Source: Desulfobacteraceae bacterium (GTDB lineage: Bacteria; Desulfobacterota; Desulfobacteria; Desulfobacterales; SKZT01). From it: a stretch of DNA of 52,381 nt. The stretch lies in the NCBI GenBank assembly GCA_011389745.1, contig JAABTQ010000021.1:1-52381 (forward strand), written 5' to 3'. Position numbers and translations under genes: made by a program. The notes below the pieces were generated by a model, which saw only the letters and a list, made by a program, of their open reading frames with translations, did no database searches and was not told where the DNA came from. This document shows positions 41,513 to 49,563 of this stretch, one piece after another (position 1 is the stretch's first letter; each line of letters opens with the position of its first letter).

Positions 41513-42292
41513 ATGATTGATCTGCATTGTCACATATTACCAGGCATTGATGATGGGCCGACAACACTGGAACAGAGTTTGGAGTTGGCGGTTTTGTATC
41601 AGAAGGCCGGATTTATCAAAATTGTCGCTACCCCGCATTGGGTCCCGGGGACATCCTGGACACCTTCCATAGAACAAATCCATCATCGTATTGCATTGCT
41701 CAGAGATTCTTTTAAAAGCAGACAAATTGATATCCAAATTTATTCCGGCATGGAAATTGCTCTAGATATCAATCTTGGTGACTTATTGCTTAGTAAGGAC
41801 TTGGTAACCCTTGCCGGCAGTTCTTACGTACTTATAGAATCGCCTTTTCAAAGGCTACCGCTGGGTTGGGATCAAATGTTTTTCGCCATCATGGCTAAAG
41901 GATATCGAATTGTCCTGGCCCATCCTGAACGATGCCTGCAATTATTTTCAACCCCTGAACTCTATGATGATATCATTGAAGCAGGAGTTTACTTTCAGGT
42001 AAATTATGATTCTTTTTTGGGCCACTATGGTAAAAAGGAGTCTGAAACAGCATTTTACCTTCTTAAAAAAGGATATATTCATTTCCTGGCTACAGACAGC
42101 CATGACCCTCTGCTTCGTCATCCAGGCAATGCCCTGGAGGCTGTAAAGGTTTTGAAAAAAACAATTGATTCCAAAACAATTGAAATTTTGACCAGGATCA
42201 ATCCTGAAAATGTAATAAACGATTTTCCATTAGAGACAATGGCTTCAGCTGATTTTTTACCTAAAGACAGGAAACGATGGCGGTGGTTTTAA
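41513..42292 (+). CDS. PHP-domain tyrosine phosphatase (CpsB/CapC-like)
   Basis: A 259-residue PHP-fold metal phosphatase of the CpsB/YwqE group. Signature motifs are MIDLHCHILPGIDDGP, ATPHWVPG, YSGMEIALD, IVLAHPERC and FLATDSHDP, which supply the metal ligands. Such enzymes remove phosphate from the tyrosine cluster of capsule kinases. The kinase encoded 1.2 kb downstream is the expected partner. It starts 16 bases after serA, so it may be reached by readthrough from the his operon, and overlaps the next gene by 16 bases. Confidence 0.9.
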   Translation: MIDLHCHILPGIDDGPTTLEQSLELAVLYQKAGFIKIVATPHWVPGTSWTPSIEQIHHRIALLRDSFKSRQIDIQIYSGMEIALDINLGDLLLSKDLVTLAGSSYVLIESPFQRLPLGWDQMFFAIMAKGYRIVLAHPERCLQLFSTPELYDDIIEAGVYFQVNYDSFLGHYGKKESETAFYLLKKGYIHFLATDSHDPLLRHPGNALEAVKVLKKTIDSKTIEILTRINPENVINDFPLETMASADFLPKDRKRWRWF

Positions 42293-43497
42293 TAAAAAAG
42301 GCTTTGCTGACGTTCACTATGTTGGTTTTGTCTTTATGGGTTATACATTATGCAATATTATGGCGCGTGGCGAACAATCCAAAGTATGCACACAGCAAAT
42401 CTGAAACCGATACTATTGAATATTTTGCCGATGCCGGGTATAATTATGGTCTCAAAGCCTGGTATGAACATGATTTGAAGTTAGCTTCCGATTATTTTCG
42501 TAAGGCACTTTCTATCAATTTATTGCACGTAGATTCCTGGCTGAAGCTGGCACAAGCGGAAACAGGCACTGGAAATACTGTGGCGGCCGCGGACATTCTT
42601 AAATTTACCAACGATCTGACCCGGAAAGTGGTACAATGGAAATGGCCTCAACTTTTGCTTGCCCGGGGATTAAAACTTGATAATATTTTTTGGGAAAATA
42701 TTAATTTTGTTATTCCTTACCGACAATTTCAGGATAACGCCCTGCATCTTTCAGACATGCATCTGGGCAGCGATACCACAGCAACATTGAATTTTCTTGA
42801 AATCGGGAACTTTCCAATCTATCTTCGCTGGCTGATGAAATGGAACAGGACCGAAGATACCTTTCGGGTATGGCGCGCCATTGAAGAGAAACAAATCGTG
42901 GATGATGATTTATATGATCGGTATATTCAGTTTTTGATATTGCAAAAAGAGTTCCGACGGGCGACGGAGATCCGGGAAAAATACACTGGGATTGATGGTA
43001 TGACCAACCCGGGATTTGAATTATCATTATCGAACAAAGGATTTGGGTGGCGAAGTCGAACCGGGGCTCACTGGGATATCCAAAGGATCGGGTCCGGGGT
43101 AATCCATGGCAATAATGCACTTCAGGTGGTTTTTTCCGGAGAAGAAAACATTAATTTTCAGCATTTGAGCCAAATTGTGCCGGTTTTGCCTGGAAAAACC
43201 TACAGCATTACCTATTGGTGGCGCAGTAAAGATCTGACCACCGATCAGCGGCCTTATATTGAAATCCGGGGCCTTGAGTGTGTCGACAGTCATTGGAAAA
43301 GTGAGATGGTGCCTCCGGAAACCGGTTGGAAACAGGAAATTTTTGTTTTTTCCATACCTGAATCATGTTATGCAGTAACCGTAAATCTTCGACGAAATCC
43401 AAGCCACAGATTCGATAGTAAAATCAGAGGAATATTATGGCTGGATCATTTTCAAATGAAAATCGTGGAAAATCTCTCCATATTGAGTGAAAACTAA
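42277..43497 (+). CDS. Membrane-anchored TPR protein of an exopolysaccharide locus
   Basis: A 406-residue protein with one N-terminal membrane helix (LLTFTMLVLSLWVIHYAIL). A TPR-like helical region follows (YNYGLKAWYEHDLKLASDYF, DSWLKLAQAETGTGN), then a C-terminal ~150-residue domain (MTNPGFELSLSNKGFGWR, NALQVVFSG, YSITYWWRSKDL, ILWLDHFQMKI) that resembles carbohydrate-binding jelly-roll modules. Position and form suggest a periplasmic scaffold or ligand-binding part of EPS assembly. No precise family is recognised. It overlaps the phosphatase gene by 16 bases and is nine bases before the kinase gene. Confidence 0.75.
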   Translation: MAVVLIKKALLTFTMLVLSLWVIHYAILWRVANNPKYAHSKSETDTIEYFADAGYNYGLKAWYEHDLKLASDYFRKALSINLLHVDSWLKLAQAETGTGNTVAAADILKFTNDLTRKVVQWKWPQLLLARGLKLDNIFWENINFVIPYRQFQDNALHLSDMHLGSDTTATLNFLEIGNFPIYLRWLMKWNRTEDTFRVWRAIEEKQIVDDDLYDRYIQFLILQKEFRRATEIREKYTGIDGMTNPGFELSLSNKGFGWRSRTGAHWDIQRIGSGVIHGNNALQVVFSGEENINFQHLSQIVPVLPGKTYSITYWWRSKDLTTDQRPYIEIRGLECVDSHWKSEMVPPETGWKQEIFVFSIPESCYAVTVNLRRNPSHRFDSKIRGILWLDHFQMKIVENLSILSEN

Positions 43498-43506
43498 GGA
43501 GTTTTA

Positions 43507-45816
43507 ATGGCTAAAGACAAAAGCAATCTACCTGTTAGGTTTGATCAGGAAAATATGGGAAGTCATCTTCCATCAACAGAATTCAGGGAAAGTATCCCGA
43601 ACGATTTGGAGGAAGAAATCGACCTTCGTGATTATATCGAGGTGATCCTCCGGCGAAAATGGCTGGTGGTGGGAGTACTCTTTTTTATTTTTATGTCTAC
43701 CCTGATTTTCAGTCTGTCGGCAAAAAAGTTGTATCGGGCCACCGGCACCATCGAGGTGAGCACCGAATCCCAGAAAGTGACTAAATTCGAGGATGTGGTC
43801 ACTGAAGGATTGCGGTCGCAGGAATTTATTGCCACGCAGGTTTCCCTGCTCAAAAGCACCGCCGTAGCAGATCGCGTTATCCATGGCATAAACTTGAAGG
43901 ATCATCCGATTATTTCAGGTGATGATAATCATGATGACTCTTTTAGCATAGGAAAAATCACGGCCGATATCAAAGCATCGATTCGTTCGATTTTCCAAAA
44001 AGACAGCGAAAATGTGGCGACCAGCACCTTAATTACCGAACGTATCGAAGACAAAAAGCTGATGGATTTTTTTCAAAGAAATCTTGAGGTTACACCCAAT
44101 CGAAATTCCATGATCATCAATGTCTCTTTTATTTCGCCCGACCGTCAATTGTCTCAGGATGCGGTAAATCAGTTAATGGAAGAGTTTGTTGCGTGGAAAA
44201 TGGATCAGCGAATGGATTCTTCCGGAAAAGCACGTCAATACCTCATGAAACAAATCGACCGGGCTAAGATTCACCTGGAGGAAGCTGAGGAAAAGCAGCA
44301 CCAGTTTGCCAGGCAGGCCGGAATCGTTTCCATGGATTCGCGACTGAACAATGTTTTCCGGCAACTTGAGGATATCAATGCTGCGTTGGGCCAGGCCGAA
44401 GCCGATCTTATCACAAAAGAGACTTTATATGAGCAGGCAGTGATAGACGGCCCTGAAAGCCTTCCACAGGTTTTAAACAGTGAGATGATCAATGATCTCA
44501 AAAAAGAGCATGCAACGCTTCAGTCTGAATATGAAAACCTGATCGAAATTTTCCATGAGGATTATCCGGATGTTAAAGCCATCACAAGCCGAATGAACAG
44601 CATTAATGAACGTATTACAAGCGAGTCGGTAAAGATATTCAATTCCATCAGACATGAGTTCCTTTCTGCCAGAAACCGTTTTGAGGTTCTTCAGAAAAAC
44701 ATGGAGGAGAAAAAACAGCTTGCCCTTGAACTCAATGAGCGAGCGACCCAGTACACGATCATGTCACGTGAGGTGGAAACCAACAAGGCCATTTATCAAA
44801 GCCTTCTTGAGCGGGCCAAGGAAATTGAGTCCATGGCAGGAATTTCTCCCTCCAATATTCAGGTGGTGGATAAGGCATCCCTTCCGATTTTTCCGGCCAA
44901 ACCCAATGTGAAGCGCAATCTGCTTCTGGCTATTGTGGTGGGACTCATGGCAGGTCTTGGAGTGGCATTTTTGATAGAGTACTTCTCCGACACGATCACC
45001 AACCCGGACCAGATTATGGATCGGTTTCAAATTCCGATTCTGGGAGTGCTCCCACTGGAAACAATTTCAAAGGACTATCCGGTGGAGCAAATTTTTATCA
45101 ACGACCCTAGATCATCCATTTCCGAGGCATTTCGAACATCAAGAGTGTCCATACAGTTATCCGGTTCAGGTTCCAATGCCCGTTGTATCGGAATCACCAG
45201 CACGACTCAGGGTGAAGGCAAAACCACCACGGCTTCCAACCTGGCCCAGACATTTGCCGGGGCCGGAGAAAGAGTTTTACTCATTGACGCTGATTTGCGT
45301 AAACCCCGTTTGCATAAGGTTTTTAACACCACAACAAGTAGTGGAAATGGGCTGTCAAGTTTTCTGGCCGGAGTGGTTCATAAAGATTTTATCGTTAAAA
45401 CCAATGTAGACAATCTGTATCTGATTCCATCCGGGCCGATTCCCCCAAACCCGGTTGAGTTGCTTGCTTCCGACCGATTTTCACAATTGCTGAAAAAGTC
45501 AGCCAGGATGTTCGACCGTATCATTATTGATGGTCCCCCGCATCTTGGTTTTGCGGATGTGCTGGTTCTGTCACGAAAAGTGGGGGGTATGATTTTGGTC
45601 TGCGCTATTGGTGAAACCACCCGGGATGGTTTGCGCCATTTCAAAAAATCCATGCATAATGTCCAGGGAACGATCCTGGGGTGTATCGTCAATAAGATCA
45701 ACCTGTCACAGCGATACGGATATAGATCATATTACAAGTATTACAAAGCGTATCATTATGATTATGGTCGGGAAAAGAAAGTCGATGAAACTCAACCTAA
45801 GGAGTTAAGTGCGTAG
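43507..45816 (+). CDS. Polysaccharide co-polymerase and BY-type tyrosine autokinase (Wzc-like)
   Basis: A 769-residue inner-membrane protein. It starts with a Wzz domain (membrane helix near residues 55-73, a long periplasmic coiled coil from ~200 to 460, second helix near 470-490). The cytoplasmic kinase follows, with Walker A QGEGKTTTASNLA (G569 on), Walker A' LLIDADLRKPRLH and Walker B IIIDGPP. The C-terminus has a tyrosine cluster (RYGYRSYYKYYKAYHYDYG) that the kinase phosphorylates in trans. It sets polymer length and export in Wzy-type pathways, opposed by the PHP phosphatase upstream. Confidence 0.94.
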   Translation: MAKDKSNLPVRFDQENMGSHLPSTEFRESIPNDLEEEIDLRDYIEVILRRKWLVVGVLFFIFMSTLIFSLSAKKLYRATGTIEVSTESQKVTKFEDVVTEGLRSQEFIATQVSLLKSTAVADRVIHGINLKDHPIISGDDNHDDSFSIGKITADIKASIRSIFQKDSENVATSTLITERIEDKKLMDFFQRNLEVTPNRNSMIINVSFISPDRQLSQDAVNQLMEEFVAWKMDQRMDSSGKARQYLMKQIDRAKIHLEEAEEKQHQFARQAGIVSMDSRLNNVFRQLEDINAALGQAEADLITKETLYEQAVIDGPESLPQVLNSEMINDLKKEHATLQSEYENLIEIFHEDYPDVKAITSRMNSINERITSESVKIFNSIRHEFLSARNRFEVLQKNMEEKKQLALELNERATQYTIMSREVETNKAIYQSLLERAKEIESMAGISPSNIQVVDKASLPIFPAKPNVKRNLLLAIVVGLMAGLGVAFLIEYFSDTITNPDQIMDRFQIPILGVLPLETISKDYPVEQIFINDPRSSISEAFRTSRVSIQLSGSGSNARCIGITSTTQGEGKTTTASNLAQTFAGAGERVLLIDADLRKPRLHKVFNTTTSSGNGLSSFLAGVVHKDFIVKTNVDNLYLIPSGPIPPNPVELLASDRFSQLLKKSARMFDRIIIDGPPHLGFADVLVLSRKVGGMILVCAIGETTRDGLRHFKKSMHNVQGTILGCIVNKINLSQRYGYRSYYKYYKAYHYDYGREKKVDETQPKELSA

Positions 45817-45918
45817 CATAAAAAAGGTTTCAGCTCAGTGTTCAGAGAAAAGATTCATATGACCGGGAACTTCTATGCTTAATTTAGAATAGAAATACCT
45901 GATGCAGGATTTTTGGAA

Positions 45919-47640
45919 ATGCAGACAAAAAATGCTGATACTATAAAATTGGTACATAGATTTGTTCGGCTTGTCATAACCATTAATGACACTCCTACAC
46001 TTATCCGACAGGTCGCTGAACATAAACAGTTTATAAGATACTGTTCTGTGGCGATAAATGAAGGTAAAAATACCGATCTTGAAGATTTAAGGTTGTACCG
46101 TGATTTAAAGCAGGAAACCTACCGGCAAGGGTTTTCTATGGATAAATTAAAAGAGAAACTGAAAACTATTGCCGATGCAATAGGATTGCGCGTTCAAACG
46201 GTCCGATCGATCCATGGTGATTATTATCAAATCCTGGGAGTCTCTGAGAATGCCGGTGCTGAGACCATTAAAAAAGCCTTTCGGGCCAAAGCACGCGAAA
46301 CACACCCTGACACAGCCTCCGGAGGTAACGATCGATTCCCCGATGTCCTTGAAGCATACAAAAATTTATCGGATCCATCCCTTCGGCGCAGTTATAATTT
46401 GAGCCAAAAGCAGGAAGGTCAACGCCAATGGTCGGAAGATCCCAGGAAACATAAGGATGATACCTTGAAAAAACCTATGGTTCCTAAATATGGGGTTCAT
46501 CTCGCACTTATCCTTTTTCTCCTTGTGGGTACCGCCATGATCGCCGATTTTGTGACACAGCAACTTGCTCTCATGGACAGTCCTCAAAAGGTTGTAAAAG
46601 TCAATAATTCTTTACCGGAGAATCAAACCGGTCATCAGCATAGTGAACCTGATATTGAAGAACAACCGGCAGCTATTAATGAGGATAAACCATTAACTGA
46701 AGAGCAATGGATATCTAAGGCGGATAAACCAACAAATAAATTGGAGGAAATCCAGACAAATGGAATAGTCCCGGAGTCCCAAAATATTCAATCCGCAACC
46801 GGAAAGGAGGTTTTAAAGGAATCTCCGGGAAAACAAAATGTTAAGGAGGATCAAAACGGTCATGAGCATAGTGAATCTAATATTGAAGAACAACCGGTAG
46901 CTATTAATGCGAATAAACCATTAACTGAAGAGCAATGGATATCTAAGGCGGATAAACCAGTTCATAAAAATGTCGCAAGCGATGAATCGTTGAAAATTAA
47001 AGTTAAAAAATTTGAAAAACAACCTGATGAGTATTATTCTCCTGATTTAAAAATCGAAAAAGCAAATAACAAGGATTCCGGTTTGGATAAAGTTTCGGAT
47101 CCGCCGGCACCTTCGGTTTTAATAAATTTTCCTCAATCAACTGGTAAGGATGATTCCGGTTTGGCCATAACACCTATTTCGGAACTTCCTGATCTGAAGT
47201 CAGTGAACAAAACCGGGGATACGGCTTCGGAAACCGTGGTTTTGAAGGAAACCTCGCAGATTAACAATGAACTGGAGCAATTTCTCTCAAACTATTGCCA
47301 AGCATATGAAAGTCGGGATCTTACAAAACTCATGGCGTTTTTTACAGAAAATGCCATGGAAAACGGAACGCCGTTGAACCAGCTTCTACCCAAATACAGT
47401 AAAAACTTTCAGAATCTGGCATCCATTCATTACCGGATAAATATGGTAAATTATATAGTGGACCCGGAATCAGGACGGATTCAAGTCAATGGGCAGTTTT
47501 TTTTGCGATGGCGAAAAAATCAGGATAAACAGTGGTACCATTATAACGGCAGTATTCGCATGGACCTGGTCTCAATTGATGAATCCTTTATCAATAATTC
47601 CTTTTCCATTCGGGAATTGTCTTATCGGTTCATAGATTAA
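45919..47640 (+). CDS. Membrane J-domain protein with periplasmic NTF2-like domain
   Basis: A 573-residue protein of unusual build. Residues ~1-95 are a helical part of unknown type. A DnaJ J-domain follows (YYQILGVSENAGAETIKKAF, with HPD at 129-131, and AYKNLSDPSLRRSYN). One membrane helix (~192-212) leads to a ~230-residue low-complexity, probably periplasmic stretch. That stretch holds two copies of a 34-residue segment ending KPLTEEQWISKADKP. The last ~120 residues are NTF2-like (FLSNYCQAYESRDLTKLMAFF, WRKNQDKQWYHYNGSIRMDL). The J-domain should stimulate a DnaK on the cytoplasmic face. ATG 45919 has AGGA eight bases ahead. Confidence 0.8.
   Translation: MQTKNADTIKLVHRFVRLVITINDTPTLIRQVAEHKQFIRYCSVAINEGKNTDLEDLRLYRDLKQETYRQGFSMDKLKEKLKTIADAIGLRVQTVRSIHGDYYQILGVSENAGAETIKKAFRAKARETHPDTASGGNDRFPDVLEAYKNLSDPSLRRSYNLSQKQEGQRQWSEDPRKHKDDTLKKPMVPKYGVHLALILFLLVGTAMIADFVTQQLALMDSPQKVVKVNNSLPENQTGHQHSEPDIEEQPAAINEDKPLTEEQWISKADKPTNKLEEIQTNGIVPESQNIQSATGKEVLKESPGKQNVKEDQNGHEHSESNIEEQPVAINANKPLTEEQWISKADKPVHKNVASDESLKIKVKKFEKQPDEYYSPDLKIEKANNKDSGLDKVSDPPAPSVLINFPQSTGKDDSGLAITPISELPDLKSVNKTGDTASETVVLKETSQINNELEQFLSNYCQAYESRDLTKLMAFFTENAMENGTPLNQLLPKYSKNFQNLASIHYRINMVNYIVDPESGRIQVNGQFFLRWRKNQDKQWYHYNGSIRMDLVSIDESFINNSFSIRELSYRFID
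46630..46731 (+). repeat. 102-base direct repeat, copy 1
   Basis: First copy of a repeat inside the J-protein gene. It matches 46858-46959 at 96 of 102 positions, with the last 50 or so identical. Both copies are in frame, so the protein carries the segment twice. Confidence 0.9.
46858..46959 (+). repeat. 102-base direct repeat, copy 2
   Basis: Second copy of the in-frame repeat, separated from copy 1 by 126 bases (a multiple of three). Six substitutions separate the copies, all in the first half. Confidence 0.9.
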
Positions 47641-47664: not shown

Positions 47665-48696
47665 TTACCTTTCGGGATCACGATAACTGTAACCAAGCCC
47701 TGGAATTCCAATATTGACGCCGCCTCCGTAGAAGAATTTTCCCCAAAAGCTGGCATTGACAAAAATAATATCCCCGTCTTTGATGATCGTTTCTTCCGCA
47801 GTTTTGATATCATTTTGCAGGTCGATTTTTATTTCCTCCCGGTTGCCGTTTTTTTCGGTTTTACGCATCAGAACCAGGTCTTTTTTATCTGCATAGGTAG
47901 CCAAGCCGCCTGCACTCAGGAGCGCTTTTCTTACAGAAAGGTTTTCTTTGATATGGTATTCTCCGGGTTTTCTTACAGCACCATCAACATAGTACAAGCC
48001 GGCTTCAGGAACAAAAATGACATCACCGCCATTGATACCGATATTTAATTCGATTTTACCCTCATTGATCAGTTCATCCAGGTTTATCAGGAAAGTTTGT
48101 GAAGAGTCTTGTGAAGAGTCCTCTGAAACATTGCTAAGCCTTCTTATATGAACAATCTGTCCTGCACTTTCGGTGAGACCGCCGGCAATTGCAAGCGCGT
48201 CAACCAAGCGCTGTCTTGAGGGATAATCATAGGTGCCGGGTTTTTCTACCTCTCCGACGACCGTTACCTTTTGACTGTGATGTTCTTTGACAAAAACACT
48301 GACATGGGGATTTTTAATATAATTATTTTTATACTTGTTTTCGATCAATATTTCGGCTTCGTGAGCGGTTTTTCCTTTCAAATTTACCTCACCGAGCAGC
48401 GGCAGCGACACATAACCCCGTGAACTGACCCGAACAATGGTGTTCAATTTGTCGGATTCGAACACTTTAACTTCGATCAAATCGCCCGGGCCTAAAAGAT
48501 AATCACTTCGATCCACCGATATATTTGCGTCGGCAAACAATTTTTGATTTAATTCTGTAATCTGTTCCGAGGTTTCGATAAAACTTGAGGCCCTGAATTC
48601 TTCAGTCGGGTGTACTTTTTTCCCGCATCCGCCGGTAATGGAAAGAATAAAAATACAAACTATAACAATAATAAATATTGAGCCTTTTAAATTCAT
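47665..48696 (-). CDS. Polysaccharide export outer-membrane lipoprotein (Wza-like)
   Basis: A 343-residue lipoprotein. The signal ends in a lipobox with C24 (LSITGGC). A PES domain follows (YLLGPGDLIEVKVFE, VSSRGYVSLPLLGEV), then two SLBB domains (VTVVGEVEKPGTYDY with IAGGLTESAG, and YYVDGAVRKPGEYHI with SAGGLATYADKKD). This is the layout of Wza-type export channels. The final segment (FFYGGGVNIGIPGLGYSYRD) may form the outer-membrane helix or strand. It is convergent with the J-protein gene, 24 bases apart, and is preceded by a terminator. Confidence 0.93.
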   Translation of the reverse strand: MNLKGSIFIIVIVCIFILSITGGCGKKVHPTEEFRASSFIETSEQITELNQKLFADANISVDRSDYLLGPGDLIEVKVFESDKLNTIVRVSSRGYVSLPLLGEVNLKGKTAHEAEILIENKYKNNYIKNPHVSVFVKEHHSQKVTVVGEVEKPGTYDYPSRQRLVDALAIAGGLTESAGQIVHIRRLSNVSEDSSQDSSQTFLINLDELINEGKIELNIGINGGDVIFVPEAGLYYVDGAVRKPGEYHIKENLSVRKALLSAGGLATYADKKDLVLMRKTEKNGNREEIKIDLQNDIKTAEETIIKDGDIIFVNASFWGKFFYGGGVNIGIPGLGYSYRDPER

Positions 48697-48801: not shown

Positions 48802-49563
48802 TCACTCTTGAGGCTGAAATTGACTTGCGTCACTTGGTTCGTCTTTGTCATGTAAAACGGCACCCATTAATGATACCCCTCCGGCGATAATAGCAGTCGT
48901 TCCAAAGGCCAGTTGCCCGCTGGTGAGATTTCCGAGAAAGCCGACCCCACTACCGGAAGTACCGCCACCAAAAACACCTGACGTTTCACCGCCAAAATCA
49001 TCTGAAGTACCATCACCGATATCTGCCTGAGCCAGTATGAATCGCTGCCCCGGTTTAATCATCTGCTGGCCGTCTTCAGTCAAAATCTGCAAGGAACCGC
49101 CTTCAATGACACCGACTTCACTAAAATCTTCAGTTACCTTGATGTAACCTTCCAGCATCCTATTATTGGAAGACGCATCAATAAACACCTGGTTGACTGA
49201 AACCGATCCCTTGGGGGTCATAAATACAATTTTGCGGGGCATTGTAGATAAACCGAAATAGACAGTGCCTTTTTCCACCCCCAGGTACCTGCTGTTGTGC
49301 TCTGAATCGATCAAAAACCGACTTTGATCCTCCCCCACCAGTGAAATATCATCCAGTTTTACCCCACATTTCCCATTACAGGACAATATTGCACTTTCAG
49401 GTACCGGCATTTCCTGGGTGTATTCTGCAACTTTTTCCCCATCCTTGAACACCGTCACCTTATCGGTGGGCACAAGTCGTGAAACCTCTCCAGCGCCGGC
49501 AGTAACTGTAAAAAACAATGCCAGCAATAGTGATATGGAAACACAAATTGTCGTTCCCTTCAT
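48802..49563 (-). CDS. Exported FecR-like protein
   Basis: A 253-residue protein with a signal peptide (ICVSISLLLALFFTVTAGA). A FecR-like beta domain follows (YLGVEKGTVYFGL, IVFMTPKGSVSVNQVFID, VGVIEGGSLQILTEDGQQMI, KPGQRFIL). After it comes a Gly/Ser/Thr-rich stretch (DDFGGETSGVFGGGTSGSG) and a hydrophobic segment (LAFGTTAIIAGGVSLMGAVL). FecR-domain proteins outside siderophore signalling often sit in polysaccharide loci. The FecR call is from pattern, and function is unknown. Confidence 0.7.
   Translation of the reverse strand: MKGTTICVSISLLLALFFTVTAGAGEVSRLVPTDKVTVFKDGEKVAEYTQEMPVPESAILSCNGKCGVKLDDISLVGEDQSRFLIDSEHNSRYLGVEKGTVYFGLSTMPRKIVFMTPKGSVSVNQVFIDASSNNRMLEGYIKVTEDFSEVGVIEGGSLQILTEDGQQMIKPGQRFILAQADIGDGTSDDFGGETSGVFGGGTSGSGVGFLGNLTSGQLAFGTTAIIAGGVSLMGAVLHDKDEPSDASQFQPQE

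Follow-up and report, generated by a model that had tools for sequence, protein, structure and literature searches.

In a 52,381-nucleotide contig of a Desulfobacteraceae bacterium (hereafter the window), we describe a membrane-bound J protein whose family has had no name until now and occurs almost exclusively next to EPS-export genes in Desulfobacterota. Its outer, NTF2-like domain is shared with an ExeA-type ATPase of sister loci, and the mobility of that domain is the part of this work that is new. We tentatively read the protein as a dedicated, envelope-anchored DnaK co-chaperone that would help to assemble or remodel the Wzc/Wza export machine, a reading that we prefer while placing it somewhat short of probable.

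Domain build and topology of the J protein

The gene is a complete and real open reading frame on the forward strand (45919–47640, 573 residues), with its ATG at 45919, its stop codon at 47638–47640 and a TTG at 45913 as an alternative start. DnaJ is the sole Pfam family above its cut-off (PF00226, E = 2e-16, residues 101–160, bases 46219–46398), and the HPD motif occupies residues 129–131 (bases 46303–46311). The zinc finger and C-terminal substrate-binding domains of DnaJ are absent, and TIGR02349 matches no more than the J-domain, scoring 60 bits where its cut-off is 377, so that, judged from sequence, the protein is by build a class C J-domain protein, one with a J-domain and no other DnaJ parts. 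A DnaK gene is present in the same genome. A further Pfam match, to V-SNARE (0.068), was judged to be chance.

Ahead of the J-domain lies a conserved helical domain of about 85 residues, delimited by alignments of relatives (approximately residues 10–95, bases 45946–46206, forward strand), which we name JNT and which is specific to the J-protein family of EPS loci. It is absent from an earlier note made on this DNA by eye. The model of JNT has five predicted helices with pLDDT of about 83–93; the domain has no family match in Pfam or the PDB, and structure comparison found no known fold, the best Z of 4.6 being uninformative for a helical bundle. For the J half as a whole (JNT, J-domain and helix), the structure model has a pTM of 0.41, and J-domains head its list of solved folds, weakly.

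After the J-domain comes one clear hydrophobic segment (approximately residues 191–213, bases 46489–46557, forward strand), with a Kyte–Doolittle peak of 2.32 against 0.92 for the highest value elsewhere in the protein, and a predicted helix at 190–219 in the structure model covers it. It is followed by a charged, flexible and presumably periplasmic linker, recognized by its composition (46558–47253, forward strand; about 230 residues rich in K, E, S, P and N). Within the linker, a 102-base stretch (GHQHSEPDIEEQPAAINEDKPLTEEQWISKADKP) occurs in two copies with few changes, at 46630–46731 and 46858–46959; this repeat is a recent in-frame duplication. The chain ends in an NTF2-like domain of about 130 residues (47254–47637, forward strand), delimited by an alignment of 22 relatives, by AlphaFold and by PDB matches. 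Pfam alone gives weak matches here, to SnoaL_4/DUF4440. The AlphaFold model, built from an alignment of 13 sequences, reaches a pLDDT of 89.6 and has the cone fold of the superfamily, with helices wrapped on a curved antiparallel sheet; Foldseek matched it to 186 PDB chains at E ≤ 0.001, the best of them of NTF2/SnoaL type, and structural matches include 3rob (Z 16.9), 3ef8 (Z 16.0), 7o21 (Z 15.2), 4xzz (Z 14.7) and the CaMKII hub. The earlier note had described an HPD-bearing J-domain, a single membrane helix, a long flexible linker and an NTF2-like end, and this description holds in every part.

Several observations bear on which side of the membrane each end faces. In 39 proteins the J side of the helix has more basic residues than the other side, with 7 ties and none reversed; ExeA-type proteins and a few short secreted proteins are also part of this set. 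Solo NTF2-like genes with signal-like N-termini occur in the same loci (L162, L163, L165 and L171), the same NTF2-like domain follows a SPOR domain in a fusion protein of L062, and two relatives from one genome carry an SH3-like insert in the same linker (L117 and L118; for L118, E = 0.0035, below Pfam's cut-off). Together, the charge bias, the signal-bearing solo copies, the SPOR fusion and the SH3-like insert support, at the level of sequence, an arrangement with the J-domain inside and the NTF2-like domain outside. The earlier note had named a segment that fails to span the membrane as a result that would undo its reading; the helix looks membrane-spanning, and the J-domain is placed inside in every relative with a clear charge bias. 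A cytoplasmic NTF2-like domain was rejected on the charge bias and the secreted copies. The short NTF2-like genes of L162, L163, L165 and L171 adjoin the genes for the J protein and the CpsB phosphatase.

An unnamed family of EPS loci

The J gene lies between kinase and export genes, as the earlier note had it. Upstream on the forward strand are a CpsB/CapC-type tyrosine phosphatase (41513–42292; PF19567, 5.8e-50), a conserved TPR-like protein (42277–43497) and, as the immediate neighbour, a Wzc-type polysaccharide co-polymerase and tyrosine kinase with a Tyr-rich tail (43507–45816). Downstream on the reverse strand are a Wza/EpsE-type outer-membrane export lipoprotein (47665–48696; PF02563 and SLBB, and TIGR03028 at 8.6e-49, below the cut-off of that model) and a conserved secreted protein that looks FecR-like by eye (48802–49563). 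The TPR-like and FecR-like genes have no Pfam family, yet relatives of both stand in nearly every related locus; the TPR-like protein turned up in 22 of 282 genomes from the order. In most relatives wzc adjoins the J gene, and a locus from the same genus (L008) keeps wzc, the J gene and the FecR-like gene in order.

Because the whole protein mostly drew ordinary J-domains when used as a query, JNT and the NTF2-like domain were searched apart; a single-protein scan of genome contigs gave no relative. As a query by itself, JNT had matches in 15 of 291 genomes from the order and in 5 of 297 from a phylum-wide sample; of these five, one (G395, 2e-4) was a false positive that we discarded, as it has no J-domain and its reading frame resembles a NuoE-type protein by eye. 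The NTF2-like domain by itself had matches in 18 of 345 genomes, again from a phylum-wide sample. These two queries, both free of the J-domain itself, brought up 32 proteins across the phylum that combine a J-domain with a membrane helix, and 29 of them keep the HPD motif.

All 29 HPD-bearing proteins have an EPS-locus gene (Wzc, Wza, TPR, CpsB or FecR-like) within 1.5 kb, and this is usually wzc or the TPR gene itself. By contrast, 34 ordinary J-protein loci (6 from this genome and 28 from relatives) all lack such genes in their 1.5-kb flanks, and none of the 34 proteins carries JNT or the NTF2-like domain. We give these counts without a probability because related genomes are non-independent samples; chance placement in EPS loci was rejected on the 29 of 29 against 0 of 34. 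Homologues unlinked to EPS genes, which the earlier note had said would tell against it, are thus not what the HPD-bearing proteins show. Outside the order, the linkage is kept in other classes despite a different gene order, in which the J gene follows the TPR gene, and it is therefore not one inherited stretch of synteny. That no named family has this build, another statement of the earlier note, is borne out in Pfam and NCBIfam, and the build was not named in the titles and abstracts covered by a partial literature search.

The HPD motif is lost in three relatives, which we count against a co-chaperone role. One of them (L170) is still within an EPS locus; the other two are the only J proteins not seen near EPS genes. 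In L159 and L168, second J-like/NTF2 copies that have lost HPD have no EPS gene near them in the stretch read, and HPD loss in such copies fits relaxed constraint after leaving the locus. L159 also has two NTF2-like domains in tandem.

Mobility of the outer domain

The outer domain is not confined to J proteins. In Desulfosarcina-type loci (L108/G188, L109, L111 from D. widdelii and L114/G166), the J protein stops just past its helix, and in L108, L109, L111 and L114 it is an ExeA-type ATPase of the same locus that bears a helix, a linker and the NTF2-like domain. In L074, L075, L078 and L119, such an ExeA–NTF2 protein comes directly after wzc, and no J protein was seen. The ATPases of the EPS loci are TIGR03015-like, at 189–264 bits against a cut-off of 324.5; the AAA domain is absent from the window protein and present only in these sister-locus relatives. 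One locus (L071) has a J–NTF2 protein together with an ExeA protein whose end is cut by the contig, and for this reason we do not claim strict exclusivity of the NTF2-like domain between J and ExeA proteins within a locus.

A tree of 53 NTF2-like domains needs eight changes of the J label and four of the ExeA label. Support is low at most deep forks, and the well-supported branches force at least three (J) and at least two (ExeA) changes. These label changes indicate that the domain has swapped heads more than once. In another genome, a protein joins a MerR-type DNA-binding head, a putative membrane segment and a long linker to the same NTF2-like domain (L068, 2486–4984), and the same build is split over two frames in L066 (2550–4423); this MerR–NTF2 protein is possibly a one-component transmembrane regulator.

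The J-domain, which would recruit DnaK, and the ExeA-type AAA ATPase are ATP-linked devices unrelated to each other, and they could be interchangeable cytoplasmic heads of one periplasmic NTF2-like anchor, driving the assembly or remodelling of Wzc/Wza through the wall. We regard this broader proposal as possible but doubtful. The outer domain is missing in six relatives, which counts against the co-chaperone reading, and one of these (G072) has a tail-anchored J protein and no NTF2 match in its genome; the outer domain is thus not strictly required. Also counted against us is G114, where Wzc and Wza occur together with the FecR-like gene and the stretch read holds neither a J protein nor an ExeA protein.

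ExeA itself, an AAA ATPase of the inner membrane, is required to assemble secretins and binds peptidoglycan through its outer part (PMC4098917). ExeA/GspA and the EPS-associated ATPases of model TIGR03015 resemble the window protein in having a cytoplasmic ATP-linked head, one helix, a long linker and a periplasmic domain; they differ in carrying an AAA ATPase where the window protein has a J-domain, and the peptidoglycan-binding outer part of ExeA is not of the NTF2-like kind. Accessory C-terminal NTF2 domains in the periplasm are also known from the peptidoglycan LD-carboxypeptidases Pgp2, Csd6 and Bd1075, where they are joined to an enzyme rather than to a J-domain. In Pgp2 and Bd1075, the closest functional precedents, they bind the cell wall or direct the protein to it (PMC8038945, PMC8938487). 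The matches 7o21 and 4xzz given above are to NTF2 domains of this carboxypeptidase group and are good ones structurally.

Proposed role in EPS export

We envision the following arrangement. JNT and the J-domain would sit in the cytoplasm beside the Wzc kinase ring, the single helix would span the inner membrane, and the long linker would let the NTF2-like domain extend into the periplasm and there, most likely, tether the protein to the cell wall or the export complex. DnaK would thereby be recruited and stimulated at the site, spending ATP to build the trans-envelope complex, open it or take it apart, and in sister loci the ExeA-type ATPase with the same outer domain appears to do an equivalent job. 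As the ligand of the NTF2-like domain, peptidoglycan is a guess that we make by analogy, from kinship of fold, in preference to polymer or a partner protein. Two results temper it, and we count both against the co-chaperone reading: many unrelated NTF2 folds score level with the wall-binding ones, and the profile match to 7o21 is not significant (E 0.23).

Mitochondria offer a partial parallel in their import motor, where the membrane J protein Tim14/Pam18 works with an NTF2-like partner, Tim44. There the two are separate proteins that both act on the matrix side, whereas the window protein is one chain with its NTF2-like domain across the membrane from the J-domain.

Another comparison is with DjlA, and with it comes the strongest alternative, that the outer domain senses the state of the envelope or polymer and DnaK in turn shifts the balance of the Wzc autokinase against the CpsB phosphatase, altering how much EPS is made instead of building the exporter. 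DjlA and the window protein share a cytoplasmic HPD J-domain, one inner-membrane helix, an adjacent helical domain and a link to capsule, and overproduced DjlA raises capsule synthesis via Rcs, an effect that needs DnaK and the J-domain and in which IgaA–RcsD contacts are loosened (PMC11709261). The kinase and phosphatase genes are both in the locus, and the MerR-type head on the same NTF2-like domain in other genomes (L068) is a regulatory arrangement. We nevertheless think such sensing unlikely, since the exchange with an ExeA-type ATPase favours assembly over signalling and tail-anchored relatives lack the outer domain altogether. Peptidoglycan-anchored assembly is at least as likely as sensing because the precedents Pgp2 and Bd1075 use their NTF2 domains to bind or target peptidoglycan and the same domain as in the window protein is found on an ExeA-type ATPase. 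In build, too, the proteins part ways: DjlA of E. coli, which is encoded outside EPS loci, has the order helix–TerB–J and hardly any outer part, whereas the window protein, encoded within such a locus, runs helical domain–J–helix–linker–NTF2. The DjlA equivalog model PRK09430 gives 21 bits over residues 96–131 only (cut-off 162), and no TerB lies between helix and J-domain, the helix coming after the J-domain and JNT having no Pfam TerB match. The window protein is thus a variant of the class C membrane J proteins and is neither DjlA nor ExeA.

Simple local quality control, in which membrane-tethered DnaK folds or clears Wzc and its partners and the NTF2-like domain merely oligomerizes or positions the protein, would suit the intact J-domain and the six relatives that dispense with the outer domain, and many NTF2-like domains only oligomerize; the CaMKII hub is among the structural matches. 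It would, however, leave unexplained why the outer domain is retained and transferred to an ATPase of the same locus and why extra secreted NTF2 copies lie nearby, and we hold it to be improbable. That the J-domain has become a structural interaction module with its DnaK function gone, as three relatives without HPD might hint, is very improbable given that HPD is kept in 29 of 32 proteins and that both copies not seen near EPS genes are HPD-less.

To our knowledge, the building of Wzc octamers and the outer-membrane Wza portal across the wall, and their cycling during export, are poorly understood. The near-exclusive EPS linkage of this family suggests an export machine with its own ATP-driven helper, and a locus-bound co-chaperone family with an apparent ATPase substitute would give exporter assembly a named ATP-driven factor. 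The protein would further be a case of a J protein that ties Hsp70 action inside, by way of its outer part, to position or ligand outside, and the family provides a named place to seek DnaK clients in EPS export.
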